Of a stretch of 64,000 nucleotides of DNA, positions 44,511-49,966 are shown in pieces. Position numbers and translations under genes: made by a program. Every line of letters starts with the position of its first letter. Position 1 is the first letter of the stretch. This DNA comes from SAR92 clade bacterium H455 (GTDB taxonomy: Bacteria; Pseudomonadota; Gammaproteobacteria; Pseudomonadales; Porticoccaceae). The stretch covers positions 1,736,001-1,800,000 of the forward strand of contig CP103416.1 in the NCBI GenBank assembly GCA_024802545.1, given 5' to 3'. The notes under the pieces were generated by a model. The model was given only the letters and a program-made list of their open reading frames with translations, was not told the DNA's origin and searched no databases.

Positions 44511-46742
44511 ATGTTGCGCGCTATCCTCGCCTTCGTACTCACTGTTTCATTTTCGCTGACTGCTGTAGCTATTGCTCCAATCGAAAAGCAGTCAGATCAG
44601 ACCGCACTCTATCGTGAAATTCTCGATCGCCTCGCCACCCGTCATTACCGCGGCCAGGACATTAACGACGAACTTTCCCAGCGCTACCTCTCTAACTATA
44701 TAGAGATGCTAGACCCCATGAAGAGCTACTTCCTGCAGTCTGATATTGAGGAATTCAATCAGTGGTCCACCAAGCTAGACGATTTGGCCCGCCGCGGAGA
44801 TGTAACTCCGGGCTTTGTGATGTTCAATCGTCTCCGCGATCGCCTGCTTGAGCAGCTAAAGGCGAATATCGAACTGTTAGAAAGTGACTATGAGTTTGAC
44901 TACAGCGTTGACGAGACCATCGTTCTCGACGGTGAAGAGCGCCAATGGCTGCAGAGCGCCTCAGAACAACGTGATTATTGGCGCAAGCGCATCAAAGACT
45001 CAATGATCCGCTTACTACTCAATGACAAGGAGCCAGTTAAAGCCCGCGAACTACTGATAAAGCGCTTTACCAATCAGATAACCCAGATGGAACAGCGCGA
45101 TAGCCAAGATGTCTTTCAGCTCTATGCTAACGCCCTAGCCACCCTCTATGACCCGCACACATCTTACTTCTCCCCTCGCACCACGGAAAACTTTCAGATC
45201 AATATGTCGCTGTCTCTGGAAGGTATTGGCGCCGAGCTGCGCACCGTAGATGAGTACACCAAGGTTGCACGGGTTATTCCAGGTGGACCAGCAGATATGC
45301 AGGGCATTTTAAAAGCCTCTGACAAGATTATTGCCGTGGGACAGGGCGAGGAAGAACTTGTGGATGTGATTGGCTGGCGTATTGACGACGTTGTGCGTCT
45401 CATTCGTGGCGCCAAGGATACAGTCGTCAGACTAGAATTGATTGAAGGCGGCAGCGACTCTGCCGACAGCACTAAGATCATTGCCATTGTTCGGGACAAG
45501 GTCAAGCTGGAAGAAAAATCCGCCCAGAGCAAAATTATCAACATTAATCAAAACGGCGTCGATTTAAAGCTTGGGGTGATCGATATCCCCGCCTTCTATA
45601 TGGACTTTGATGCCTATCGCAAACGCGATCCGGAGTATAAAAGCACTACTAGAGACGTCTACAAATTACTTGGCGAACTCCGTGAAGAGCAAGTTGACGG
45701 TATTGTTTTAGACCTGCGCAATAACGGCGGCGGCTCCCTCCATGAAGCCACTATGCTCACCGATTTGTTTATCGATACGGGCCCTGTGGTGCAGATCCGC
45801 AATGCCTACCAACAGGTATCTAGAGATCAGCGCGCAATGATGCGTGCCGCTTACAATGGCCCGCTACTGGTTTTGATCAACCGTCTCAGCGCTTCGGCCT
45901 CAGAGATTTTTGCCGGTGCGCTGCAGGACTATGGGCGCGCTGTAGTGGTTGGCAGTCAGAGCTTTGGCAAAGGCACAGTGCAAGATGTTACCGGTCTCAG
46001 CAGCGGTCAGTTGAAGCTCACCGTATCAAAATTTTATCGTGTCTCCGGTGACAGTACCCAACATCGAGGTGTGGTACCGGATATTGAACTCCCCTCCCTC
46101 TATGACAAAGCTGAAGTGGGTGAAAGCCAGCAAGACAACGCCCTGCCCTGGGACAATATTCACAGCGTGCCCTTCAAGCCTATGCCCGGTGTAAAGCAAT
46201 ACTTTGCTGCTCTTACAGCAGAGCATGAGCGACGTATCGCCAGTGACCCTGATTTTGTGCACCTGGTTAACACACTAGAGTTGAGCAATAGCTGGGACGC
46301 TGAACAGGCCGTTTCCCTAAATATTGAAAAGCGCCGAGCGCGGAGCCGCGACTGGGATAAGCAGCGATTTTTGCTTGAGAATAAACGCCGCAAGTTAAAA
46401 GGTCTTGAGCTCTATGCTGATCAAAAAGCGTGGAAAAGTGACAATAAAGGAGCCGAGGATGATGACGAGACCTTAGCTGAAGGCGATGACAAAACTAACG
46501 CTGAGGACAAGATTGAAAGCATTGTCGATAAAGCGCCAAGCACTGAATCTCTCATCGACTCTGAGAATGACTCCCTAGCTGATGGGGAGGCCAAGGCTGA
46601 GGATGATAAAGAGGAGGAAGATATAGCGGAAACTGATCCGATACTACAAGAAGCTGGTCATATTCTAGCGGATCAAATTCGCCTGCAGGCAAAACCCGCC
46701 AGCAAGCACATGTTGGTGCACTCTGAGAAAGTTGAGAAATAG
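44511..46742 (+). CDS. prc: Tail-specific protease Prc (CtpA)
   Basis: Periplasmic S41 protease that trims or degrades envelope proteins from the C-terminus. It has an N-terminal signal peptide (residues 1-21), a helical N-terminal domain, a PDZ domain (about 230-320; LEGIGAELRTVDEYTKVARV), then catalytic Ser in NRLSASASEIFAGALQDYG and Lys in QSFGKGTVQD. After the normal C-terminal domain there is a very acidic stretch of about 75 residues (roughly 650-725, rich in Glu and Asp), which makes the protein (743) longer than E. coli Prc (682). The stop is 2 bp before xthA. Confidence 0.93.
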   Translation: MLRAILAFVLTVSFSLTAVAIAPIEKQSDQTALYREILDRLATRHYRGQDINDELSQRYLSNYIEMLDPMKSYFLQSDIEEFNQWSTKLDDLARRGDVTPGFVMFNRLRDRLLEQLKANIELLESDYEFDYSVDETIVLDGEERQWLQSASEQRDYWRKRIKDSMIRLLLNDKEPVKARELLIKRFTNQITQMEQRDSQDVFQLYANALATLYDPHTSYFSPRTTENFQINMSLSLEGIGAELRTVDEYTKVARVIPGGPADMQGILKASDKIIAVGQGEEELVDVIGWRIDDVVRLIRGAKDTVVRLELIEGGSDSADSTKIIAIVRDKVKLEEKSAQSKIININQNGVDLKLGVIDIPAFYMDFDAYRKRDPEYKSTTRDVYKLLGELREEQVDGIVLDLRNNGGGSLHEATMLTDLFIDTGPVVQIRNAYQQVSRDQRAMMRAAYNGPLLVLINRLSASASEIFAGALQDYGRAVVVGSQSFGKGTVQDVTGLSSGQLKLTVSKFYRVSGDSTQHRGVVPDIELPSLYDKAEVGESQQDNALPWDNIHSVPFKPMPGVKQYFAALTAEHERRIASDPDFVHLVNTLELSNSWDAEQAVSLNIEKRRARSRDWDKQRFLLENKRRKLKGLELYADQKAWKSDNKGAEDDDETLAEGDDKTNAEDKIESIVDKAPSTESLIDSENDSLADGEAKAEDDKEEEDIAETDPILQEAGHILADQIRLQAKPASKHMLVHSEKVEK

Positions 46743-46744
46743 TT

Positions 46745-47560
46745 ATGGCAGCACGAATCGTTTCATTTAACGTCAATGGGCTGCGCTCACGCTTAGATCA
46801 GCTGAAAACTATGATTTTGCAGCATTCGCCAGATATTATCGGCCTTCAGGAAACCAAGGTCAGCGATGAGGAGTTTCCCCATAAGGCGATTGCGGATCTC
46901 GGCTATGAGGTGAACTTTCATGGTCAAAAAGGCCATTATGGCGTTGCTCTGCTAAGCAAGGCCCCCGCCGTCGCCATTACCCGCGGCTACCCCTCCGATG
47001 ACAAAGATGCCCAGAGACGCATGATTCACGGTGAATACTCGATCAATGGCCAAACAGTACACGTGATTAATGGTTACTTCCCTCAGGGCGAGAGTCGCGC
47101 TCATCCAACCAAATTTCCCGCCAAAGAAAAGTTTTACGCTGACTTATTAGCCTATTTGGAGAGCAGTTTTAATTCCGATGATCTAGTAGCTGTGATGGGC
47201 GATATGAATGTCGCAGCTGAGGATATAGATGTGGGCATTAAGCCAGAAAATGCCAAGCGCTGGATTAAGACCGGCAAGTGCGCCTTTCTACCCGAAGAGC
47301 GGCAGTGGCTACAGAACTTGCTCGATTGGGGCTTGCGCGATAGCTTTAGAGAGCAGAATGCCGAAACCAACAGCTACAGTTGGTTTGACTATCGCAGCAA
47401 AGGTTTTGATCTAGAGCCTAAGCGCGGCCTGCGTATTGACCTTATTCTGGCTTCGCCTTCACTGATGAAGCTAGTCGCAGACACTGGTATAGACACCGAG
47501 GCCAGAGGTTTTGAAAAGCCCTCTGACCACTGCCCTATTTGGGCTGACCTGAGCCTTTAA
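46745..47560 (+). CDS. xthA: Exodeoxyribonuclease III
   Basis: A 3'-5' exonuclease and AP endonuclease of base-excision repair. The exonuclease-endonuclease-phosphatase fold motifs are visible: IVSFNVNGLRSRLDQ, IIGLQETKV (metal Glu), GDMNVAAEDIDVG, and the C-terminal LRIDLILAS and PSDHCPIWADLSL with the catalytic His. The 271 residues match XthA. It is tightly packed behind prc (2 bp). Confidence 0.95.
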   Translation: MAARIVSFNVNGLRSRLDQLKTMILQHSPDIIGLQETKVSDEEFPHKAIADLGYEVNFHGQKGHYGVALLSKAPAVAITRGYPSDDKDAQRRMIHGEYSINGQTVHVINGYFPQGESRAHPTKFPAKEKFYADLLAYLESSFNSDDLVAVMGDMNVAAEDIDVGIKPENAKRWIKTGKCAFLPEERQWLQNLLDWGLRDSFREQNAETNSYSWFDYRSKGFDLEPKRGLRIDLILASPSLMKLVADTGIDTEARGFEKPSDHCPIWADLSL

Positions 47561-47626
47561 GTATTGTTAGTGACAATAGTGTTAATAGCACTACTAGTTT
47601 AACTCCGTCGCCAGTCAACCAATCTC

Positions 47627-47665
47627 TCCTGTCACCGTTCAACAGAGCGACAGGAAAATAAGGAG
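47627..47665 (+). promoter_or_regulatory. Leader hairpin and strong ribosome-binding site
   Basis: TCCTGTC (47627-47633) and GACAGGA (47649-47655) form a 7-bp stem ending 4 nt before the strong AAGGAG (47660-47665), which in turn lies 6 nt before a GTG start. The strong site is what makes the GTG start credible. The stem could influence access to it. Confidence 0.45.
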
Positions 47666-47671
47666 ATAGAC

Positions 47672-48226
47672 GTGGGTAGAATTTTAACGGTATTGACACT
47701 GAGCGTTAGCCTGCTGACGTTCCCGCCAACGGCGCTGGCTGAGCGTGATAAAGACAGGGCAGCGAGCGATCGCAGCTTTTATAAGTACCAGCACAGGAAA
47801 GATAGCGACAGGAACCATTCTGGTAAAAAACTTGCTGACAAAAACTATCAATATGAAAAGCATCAATATGAACAGCATCAAAACAAAAAATACATAAATA
47901 AAAAACACCAATATAAAAAATCTCGCGCCGAGACAATTAGGCAGTACAAGCTGGCCACAAAACATCAGCAGAGAATCGCTGCCTATAGTTACTTTAACGG
48001 CAATAATTATCAGCACTGGCGTGGGCCTCACATCTATCAAAAGCACCCCAGCTACCGAGCGCTACGCAGACATTATTACGCTCCTAATCACGATCGTTAC
48101 TGGACTCATTACCAACGCTATCATCGAGCCCATAAACACAGCCATCACCAGCACGACGATAATTACCTAGAATGGGTAACCACCATGCTCTTGCTGAATG
48201 ATCTTTTAGATGATGACTACCCTTAA
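47672..48226 (+). CDS. Secreted His/Tyr-rich protein of unknown function
   Basis: A 184-residue protein starting with GTG, with a cleavable signal peptide (residues 1-23, ending TALA). The mature part is highly polar, with long runs rich in Lys, Gln, His and Tyr (NYQYEKHQYEQHQNKKY, RYHRAHKHSHHQHDD). The sequence suggests binding of transition metals or of polyanions; no family is recognised. The C-terminal end overlaps the sigma-factor start by 17 bp, so its translation is linked to that of the sigma gene. Confidence 0.65.
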   Translation: MGRILTVLTLSVSLLTFPPTALAERDKDRAASDRSFYKYQHRKDSDRNHSGKKLADKNYQYEKHQYEQHQNKKYINKKHQYKKSRAETIRQYKLATKHQQRIAAYSYFNGNNYQHWRGPHIYQKHPSYRALRRHYYAPNHDRYWTHYQRYHRAHKHSHHQHDDNYLEWVTTMLLLNDLLDDDYP

Positions 48227-48983
48227 CCCCGAGTTGACAGTTGCGCAAATGGAGCTTTTAGTGCAGGAACCGCAAACGGACCAGGCAAACGTTGAAGATA
48301 GCTATGTTGAGGCTAGTTTTATCAACAACCGCCGCGACAAAAACAATAGCGCCATGGCTGAGGACATTAGGGTTGAGCAAACTGATATTGAAAAAACTAA
48401 TGCCGATAAAAAAACACCTGGGTTATTGGCTATGCCTTTAGATGAAGTGTCCATGGACGAGTTTCTTCAGAGCATTGAACGCCGCGCCTTTCATATGGCA
48501 AGAATGGCCACCGGGAGTCGCGATGATGCTCTGGATATAGTTCAAGACGCTATGTTCAAGTTGGTGGAGAAATACTCCGCCAAAAGCGTCGACCAGTGGC
48601 GTCCACTGTTTTACCGAATCTTAAACCGCAAGATTACCGACCACTATCGTCGCAACGCGGTGAAAAAAAAGCTTTTTAGTCTCGCCAGTTTAGGTCTAAA
48701 AGTTGGCGATGAGGGTGCTGATCTAATCGACCGCGCTGAGGGTCGCAAGAGCGATGCCCCGGATCAGAGTGTTGCCCGGGCGTTACAGATGGAAGTGCTC
48801 TCTAAAGCTATAGTCCAGCTACCCGGCCGTCAGCGTCAAGCTTTTATGCTGCGTTGCTGGGACGGAATGAGCACTGCTATAACTGCTGAAACTATGGGCT
48901 GTAGTCAGGGTAGCGTCAAGACCCACTACTCCCGAGCCATACATTCCCTGAGAGCCTCACTGGAGGAGTACAGACATGAATAG
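48210..48983 (+). CDS. Sigma-70 family (ECF-type) RNA polymerase sigma factor
   Basis: Region 2 is SRDDALDIVQDAMFKLVEKY with WRPLFYRILNRKITDHYRRN; region 4 is LPGRQRQAFMLRCWDGMSTA and GCSQGSVKTHYSRAIHSLR. The protein has an unusual polar N-terminal extension of about 75 residues before region 2, unless translation starts at an internal ATG (for example codons for MAEDIRVEQ or MPLDEVSMDE). The start at 48210 overlaps the upstream secreted-protein gene, and the 3' end overlaps the membrane-protein gene by 8 bp. It is presumably released by a membrane partner in response to an envelope signal (inference). Confidence 0.82.
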   Translation: MMTTLNPELTVAQMELLVQEPQTDQANVEDSYVEASFINNRRDKNNSAMAEDIRVEQTDIEKTNADKKTPGLLAMPLDEVSMDEFLQSIERRAFHMARMATGSRDDALDIVQDAMFKLVEKYSAKSVDQWRPLFYRILNRKITDHYRRNAVKKKLFSLASLGLKVGDEGADLIDRAEGRKSDAPDQSVARALQMEVLSKAIVQLPGRQRQAFMLRCWDGMSTAITAETMGCSQGSVKTHYSRAIHSLRASLEEYRHE

Positions 48984-49305
48984 CAATACAGAGCGTAACT
49001 TGCAGAAGCAGCTAGTAGCGCTGGAACAAGACACGGCCAGCGAAGACCTCTTTCGCCTGGCCCAAGGACGTAAAAACGCCCTGCAGCAAAAGCGTCGAAA
49101 GGCTAGTTGGATAATCTGGCCGGCACTGGCCACGTCTTTGGCCTCAGCCCCACTGATCGCCATACTCTATACCCCCACAGGCTTGGTAATATCTCCAGAA
49201 AGAGACATTATTGAAGATGATTACTACTCAGAACTGGCGGAGGAAAGCATAGATCTTTACGATGACTTGGAATTTTATGATTGGTTAGCGGATATGCAGA
49301 GCTAA
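48976..49305 (+). CDS. Small single-pass membrane protein, candidate anti-sigma factor
   Basis: A 109-residue protein with a basic cytosolic N-terminus (about residues 1-43, rich in Gln, Lys and Arg), one hydrophobic segment (44-64, WIIWPALATSLASAPLIAIL) and an acidic periplasmic tail of about 45 residues. It begins inside the sigma gene (8-bp overlap). The topology fits a membrane tether for the sigma factor. It resembles small DUF3619-type proteins found beside sigma/DUF3106 genes. Function is inferred from position. Confidence 0.6.
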   Translation: MNSNTERNLQKQLVALEQDTASEDLFRLAQGRKNALQQKRRKASWIIWPALATSLASAPLIAILYTPTGLVISPERDIIEDDYYSELAEESIDLYDDLEFYDWLADMQS

Positions 49306-49328
49306 TCCAAGATTCACTAAAGAGACAA

Positions 49329-49886
49329 ATGATGAAAAATAAGCGACTAACACTATTAGCATTGCTGTCATTACTGGCTTGCTTCGCCCTGCCTGTGCTG
49401 GCAGATCAGCACGCTGAAGAACCAATACCCTGGCAAGACCTGCCGGCTGACGCGCGCAGTTTACTGGCGCCCATGGCAGATCACTGGGACCAGCTAAAGC
49501 CTAAGCAGCAACATCGTCTATTGCGCAAAGTCGGAAACCAAAAATTTAAACAGGGTGCCGATCGCTGGAAGCGGCTCTCACCAGAGGAGCGCGAACGACT
49601 TAAGCAATCTCGCGGACGGTTTAAGCAACTGCCACCAGAAAAGCGCAAAGCATTGCGCCAGCAATGGGAGAATATGTCTGAGAGTGAACGCAAAGAGGCG
49701 ATTTATGCACGCCAGGCACTGAGTGATATTCCGCCCAAACAGCGCCATCGCCTTCTCAGGGAGCTACGCAACCTTCCCCAGGAACAGCGCCGCGCTGAAT
49801 TGCACAAACTGGTAAATGCAACGCCCCAGAATAAAGGGCAAAAAGACACAAAGCCTAAAGATAAAAACCCTAACAAGGCAGAATAG
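49329..49886 (+). CDS. DUF3106 periplasmic protein
   Basis: A signal peptide (MMKNKRLTLLALLSLLACFA, to VLADQ) precedes a repeated helical motif: WDQLKPKQQHRLLRKVG, WKRLSPEERERLKQSRGRF, QLPPEKRKALRQQWENM and DIPPKQRHRLLRELRNLP, each of the type W-x-L-x-P-x-x-R. This is the DUF3106 pattern, similar in style to the LTxxQ helical proteins Spy and CpxP. The C-terminus is Lys/Asn rich. Two adjacent ATGs (49329, 49332) are possible starts. It closes the sigma operon, and a terminator follows. Confidence 0.75.
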   Translation: MMKNKRLTLLALLSLLACFALPVLADQHAEEPIPWQDLPADARSLLAPMADHWDQLKPKQQHRLLRKVGNQKFKQGADRWKRLSPEERERLKQSRGRFKQLPPEKRKALRQQWENMSESERKEAIYARQALSDIPPKQRHRLLRELRNLPQEQRRAELHKLVNATPQNKGQKDTKPKDKNPNKAE

Positions 49887-49905
49887 CCAACTCAAAACCC
49901 AAGGC

Positions 49906-49936
49906 AAAAAAAAGACCCCAACGGGGTCTTTTTTTT
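49906..49936. terminator. Terminator between the sigma operon and etfA
   Basis: Perfect 14-bp arms (49906-49919 and 49923-49936; core GACCCC/GGGGTC) with loop AAC, A-run left and T-run right. Usable in both directions between convergent genes. Confidence 0.92.
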
Positions 49937-49966
49937 ACGACTAAACTCAGCGCACAATGCAATCGA

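Follow-up and report, generated by a model that had tools for sequence, protein, structure and literature searches.

A putative envelope sigma factor regulon in the SAR92 clade and other Gammaproteobacteria, with a recurrent slot for secreted low-complexity proteins

Introduction

ECF sigma factors with a membrane partner, such as those of the RpoE-RseA type, are a well-known kind of regulatory system, and their promoters usually combine AAC in the -35 element with CGT in the -10 element. The general stress sigma factor EcfG of Alphaproteobacteria is regulated by the PhyR/NepR partner switch. According to one published account (PMC8103513), EcfG promoters carry the AAC (-35) and CGTT (-10) cores that are also seen in the locus described here, and EcfG is autoregulated.

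Clusters that combine a sigma factor of the NF006550 (PRK09047) family with DUF3619 and DUF3106 proteins are found in Gamma- and Betaproteobacteria, and no mention of DUF3106, DUF3619, or PRK09047 was found in the open literature searched. Among the papers listed there as containing both GTCAACC and “sigma factor”, none gives a description of the regulon presented below, and it is likewise missing from the main text of two ECF toolbox papers and of an ECF review. The search, confined to the open literature, turned up no account of the regulon, of its promoter, or of a low-complexity first gene recurring in this way.

Organization of the SAR92 locus

The window analyzed here is a stretch of 64,000 nucleotides (G000:C1:1736001-1800000) from the single-contig, 2.96-Mb genome of SAR92 clade bacterium H455, whose best named relatives, judged by similarity of the sigma factor, are MOLA455 (87% identity) and HTCC2207 (76%). 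It carries four packed genes that follow xthA (46745-47560) and are bounded on the other side by etfA and etfB, which run convergently to them (Table 1). The four open reading frames, with overlaps of 17 and 8 bp and a gap of 23 bp, were confirmed as originally predicted, and so was the strong terminator closing the module, which corresponds to an inverted repeat; the proposal that the four genes form a single operon is also supported. The order xthA-module-etfA is repeated throughout the same-genus loci. An Rfam search of the region gave no match, and a scan for sigma-70 promoters found no forward-strand site. A gene for a Prc/Ctp-like tail-specific protease (window positions 44511-46742) is the second gene 5' of the module, in the order prc-xthA-module, and keeps this position in relatives wherever the locus extends that far. 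Tail-specific proteases cleave C-terminal tails, and the module proteins have tails of such a sort.

Table 1. Features of the module (window coordinates)
Feature	Position	Strand	Evidence and remarks
ECF-type promoter GTCAACC-N15-CGTT	47614-47639	+	-35 element 47614-47620, -10 element 47636-47639; conserved in the same-genus genomes examined; precedes the module class-wide
Secreted His/Tyr/Lys-rich protein, 184 aa, first operon gene	47672-48226	+	GTG start; signal-peptide-like N terminus; conserved C-terminal DYLEWVxxMLLL
NF006550 (PRK09047) ECF-type sigma factor	48210-48983	+	Domain and NF006550 matches
Membrane protein of 109 aa with a single membrane span, probably a divergent DUF3619 homolog, probable anti-sigma factor	48976-49305	+	Ends in DLEFYDWLA; profile comparison
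DUF3106 secreted, charged helical protein	49329-49886	+	ATG at 49329; PF11304, E = 1.5e-17
Inverted-repeat terminator, boundary between the module and convergent etfA	49904-49938	.	Inverted repeat

The assignment of the second gene to the ECF type is borne out by matches to region 2 (PF04542, E = 5.6e-7) and region 4 (PF08281, E = 2.1e-14) alone, the domain search giving no match to region 3 or region 1.1, and by an NF006550 score of 212 bits (curated cutoff, 173). Close relatives retain the long polar N-terminal extension that had been noted for this protein, at 75% identity across residues 1 to 257, but it varies in length and is shortened in most of the genus, and the conserved core starts at approximately residue 77. 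The TIGR02939 (RpoE) factor of the same genome is encoded elsewhere (G000:C1:2546646). The last gene product matches DUF3106 above threshold (PF11304, 64.4 bits versus a gathering score of 24.3).

A promoter shared across Gammaproteobacteria

In the same-genus genomes examined, the gap after xthA contains the sequence GTCAACC-N15-CGTT, which precedes the His/Tyr-rich gene where that gene is present and the sigma gene where it is not. With the motif taken from SAR92, independent NF006550 loci outside the genus were examined, and the full set of 171 distinct loci (SAR92 included, mostly gammaproteobacterial) was scanned over the 1.5 kb that precede the sigma core. It was detected in 132 of them, including 108 exact matches and 126 with the 15-bp spacer; the number of exact matches expected by chance, at the rate observed in sigma-lacking genomes, is approximately 0.009. 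In 58 of the 132 loci, a secreted gene located ahead of the sigma gene has the promoter 5 to 130 bp before it; in another 68, no more than 300 bp separate the promoter from the sigma core, and the slot is empty. The remaining 6 have a more distant promoter and no secreted gene by the simple rule used, with at least one of them (L058) containing an intervening Asp/Arg-repeat gene. None of the 29 RpoE (TIGR02939) control loci had the promoter; an upstream open reading frame passed the same loose signal-peptide rule in 4 of these, none convincingly. The promoter is also missing from the apparently betaproteobacterial NF006550 loci (L218-L252; Burkholderiales, Gallionellaceae, Methylophilaceae, and relatives), so promoter specificity there is probably different. 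Judged by its sequence and position, GTCAACC-N15-CGTT is a group-specific, putatively autoregulated promoter that lies upstream of the operon throughout the class.

The original prediction of a transcribed leader hairpin starting at 47627 did not hold. The hairpin overlaps the -10 element of the promoter and the spacer between the -10 and -35 elements, so that its 5' arm precedes the point where transcription is expected to begin and would be left out of the transcript. The hairpin also shows no conservation in relatives.

The first gene and its counterparts in other lineages

The GTG start of the first gene is consistent with the alignment to the ATG starts of its relatives. His and Tyr account for 23% of the mature protein, and its AlphaFold model is of low confidence (pTM 0.33). 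The co-occurrence of this gene with the sigma gene could be traced through the genus: it is found directly 5' of the sigma gene in 18 of the 29 sigma-bearing same-genus genomes, and three more (L025, L028, and L029) carry in the first slot a secreted homolog with only 7 to 10% His+Tyr, which is related to the His/Tyr-rich protein along its length (hhalign probability 95.7, E = 9.3e-9). Of the remaining same-genus sigma loci, one (L011) has a degenerate stretch there, and the others have no gene in the slot or reach a contig end. Since whole-genome searches placed all genus homologs of the His/Tyr-rich protein next to the sigma gene, the observation that had been named in advance as evidence against the module, namely a lack of homologs beside the sigma gene, was not made. 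The His/Tyr-rich gene is apparently frameshifted in L006 and degenerate in L011, and the sigma gene is intact in both.

The His/Tyr-rich protein is one of several occupants that this recurrent slot has in different loci. These occupants are unrelated in sequence and alike in kind: they are small and secreted, and most are built mainly of a few polar residues, the four most frequent residues making up 42 to 72% of the mature chain in most slot proteins and 35 to 37% in the three non-His-rich SAR92 homologs. Export was called from simple hydropathy rules and Pfam families. Besides SAR92, His/Tyr-rich proteins occupy the slot in families represented by L030, L083, and L102; Asp/Arg-repeat proteins of the form DRLDRRGDRIENR occur in Microbulbifer and many others, Gly-rich GQG proteins in L065 and L217, a Gln/Thr/Gly type in L070, Glu/Arg/Gln-rich proteins in L185, L206, L208, and L245, and EF-hand proteins in L092 and L248. 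Its place between a putatively autoregulated promoter and the sigma gene, as one occupant of such a slot, argues that the His/Tyr-rich gene is a target of the sigma factor and is not there by accident.

The membrane partner

The membrane protein encoded after the sigma factor in the window has no Pfam match and no recognized anti-sigma domain. A profile of the SAR92 partners aligned over its full length (E = 5.8e-22) with one built from the partners found in other families; these include L043 and L050, both above the DUF3619 (PF12279) cutoff, and the SAR92 protein is, by this comparison, probably a divergent DUF3619-like homolog. Its C-terminal motif, [DE]L[DE]FYxWL, is common class-wide, and an FYxWL-type open reading frame follows the sigma gene in 85 of the first 102 loci. 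In L087 (1561-2013) and L102 (2646-3077), the FYxWL tail is joined to an N-terminal HX3CX2C motif resembling that of zinc anti-sigma factors, where the matches to zf-HC2 are weak and below the Pfam gathering score. This motif of class I zinc anti-sigma (ZAS) proteins was seen only in these two relatives; it favors an anti-sigma role for the partner family, even though the window protein lacks it. The cytoplasmic part comprises only ~45 residues, classical anti-sigma domains being longer, and the AlphaFold model is of low confidence (pTM 0.24), but topology and gene position fit an anti-sigma factor. Adjacent to the sigma gene, conserved throughout the class, and with the HX3CX2C N terminus in two relatives, the protein probably is the anti-sigma factor that had been proposed. 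In many families (L043, L050, L057, and others), the DUF3619 and DUF3106 genes are separated by a gene for a small secreted protein, which has the motif LEFLGxWExxDGxWxDP and no Pfam family and is absent in SAR92.

Other promoter targets

The window's genome contains two exact promoter sites, that of the operon and another located 34 bp before a gene for a glycine-zipper lipoprotein (PF05433) beside SPFH/NfeD-like genes. Orthologs of this lipoprotein are found in 23 SAR92 genomes, and 21 of these have the exact promoter in the same place. None of the six same-genus genomes that lack the sigma factor encodes the lipoprotein (P = 0.0006), an association confounded by the reduced or incomplete state of most of these genomes. 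Within the genus, the exact pattern gave 90 raw matches versus 64 for the reversed-pattern control, and therefore only the conserved sites are convincing there. In other families, sigma-bearing genomes have approximately 2 exact sites apiece, compared with a total of 4 in the 19 genomes lacking the sigma factor (P = 2.5e-8).

Outside the window's genome, the targets are mostly envelope proteins, in support of the envelope theme of the original prediction. The second sites examined precede genes for DUF4382 lipoproteins in six loci and, in single cases, those for an LTXXQ/Spy-like protein (E = 0.0024), a glycine-zipper OmpA lipoprotein, and another GQG protein; an EF-hand protein is a promoter target in one SAR92 genome. 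Several further exact matches, located inside unrelated genes, probably reflect chance. No metal transporter or oxidase was seen among the targets inspected. In L157 (G093:C458:2900-5200), tandem secreted His/Arg/Asp-rich paralogs each follow their own exact GTCAACC-N15-CGTT. The glycine-zipper promoters of SAR92 (L142, L143, L134, and others) often contain an inverted repeat, GTCAACC-N8/9-GGTTGAC, that overlaps the ECF elements; it is absent from the operon promoter and could mark a divergent promoter or the place where a different regulator binds.

Discussion

It is likely that the module constitutes an autoregulated envelope circuit of an ECF sigma factor and its anti-sigma factor, a reading that takes in both the release of the sigma factor by a signal and a response in the periplasm or outer membrane. 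The DUF3619-like small membrane protein would keep the sigma factor inactive until an envelope signal frees it. The freed factor would then transcribe its own operon and the distant glycine-zipper lipoprotein gene from GTCAACC-N15-CGTT, producing more sigma factor and partner alongside secreted and outer-membrane proteins. The first of these products in SAR92 would be the secreted His/Tyr-rich protein, and the low-complexity polyampholyte, the DUF3106 helical protein, and the lipoprotein could have a protective or structural role in the periplasm or outer membrane. A broader proposal, which we would place slightly short of an even chance, is that of a widespread gammaproteobacterial envelope sigma regulon in which lineage-specific, unrelated secreted low-complexity polyampholytes fill the first slot, selection keeps their physical property and regulation and not their sequence, and the membrane anti-sigma factor may receive feedback from them.

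Of the other ways to read the locus, the most probable, although still unlikely, makes the secreted first protein a regulator as well: the protein, or its C-terminal acidic-aromatic-Trp motif, would titrate a signal or present it to the periplasmic tail of the partner, as feedback or as a signal peptide. Such a protein is encoded first in the operon in 58 loci, and its DYLEWxxxM resembles the partner's DLDFYxWL, each being a short motif of the acidic-aromatic-Trp kind; this likeness is itself short, however, and in 68 loci the slot is empty and the promoter stands immediately ahead of the sigma gene, which indicates that the first protein is not required for the circuit. A little less probable is a membrane protein without anti-sigma activity, the sigma factor being under transcriptional control only and its partner being another envelope effector. 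The very short cytoplasmic region of the window protein and its want of a recognized domain would suit such an effector, but a single-pass protein encoded by an overlapping gene right after the sigma gene in most loci, with HX3CX2C-bearing homologs, points rather to an anti-sigma factor.

The metal-sensing option of the original prediction, taken here as a sigma circuit that would respond to Cu, Zn, or Ni with the His/Tyr-rich protein binding the metal, appears improbable. The His and Tyr content of the mature protein and the similar slot proteins of distant families speak for it, but the His-rich part is not conserved even within SAR92, where the subclade homolog lacks it and so leaves metal sensing unsupported; in most families the slot is held by Asp/Arg, Gly, Glu/Arg, or EF-hand types, and the inspected targets do not have the look of metal handling. 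Metal sensing was accordingly rejected as the conserved role of these loci, although it is conceivable for SAR92 itself. That the His/Tyr-rich gene is an unrelated neighbor caught by the compact spacing is far less credible still: the gene is missing in part of the genus, but this explanation is contradicted by the position of the promoter, with the gene lying between it and the sigma gene and every genus homolog found there.

Under the autoregulated circuit favored here, an operon that had lacked an explanation becomes a regulon open to testing, with an exactly defined promoter. The circuit ties a single sigma factor to DUF3106, DUF3619, DUF4382, and several unannotated secreted low-complexity families in widely differing groups that include SAR92, Microbulbifer, Thiothrix, and Hahella. 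A general question follows as well, namely why an autoregulated operon retains a secreted, probably disordered first protein whose sequence is repeatedly replaced.

Comparison with known systems

The module resembles the RpoE-RseA type in its sigma factor consisting of regions 2 and 4 only, the overlapping gene for a small membrane protein, the putatively autoregulated operon, the envelope targets, and the AAC/CGT-type promoter elements. It is not a member of that type: its sigma factor belongs to NF006550 and not to TIGR02939, its partner is DUF3619-like and not RseA, there are no RseB or MucD genes, and it has its own promoter, GTCAACC-N15-CGTT, and a secreted low-complexity first gene. The likeness to alphaproteobacterial EcfG extends to the AAC and CGTT cores and to autoregulation (PMC8103513), whereas the sigma family is another one and a membrane partner takes the place of the PhyR/NepR switch. 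As in the case of the LTXXQ chaperones Spy and CpxP, charged helical secreted proteins are placed under predicted envelope-stress control, and one of the class-wide targets is LTXXQ-like, but DUF3106 is a separate Pfam family. With the NF006550/DUF3619/DUF3106 clusters of Gamma- and Betaproteobacteria, the SAR92 module shares the sigma family, the probable partner family, and the DUF3106 gene, as well as the promoter in the gammaproteobacterial members; it differs from them in lacking the small LEFLGxWE gene of many relatives and in carrying the His/Tyr-rich secreted first gene.
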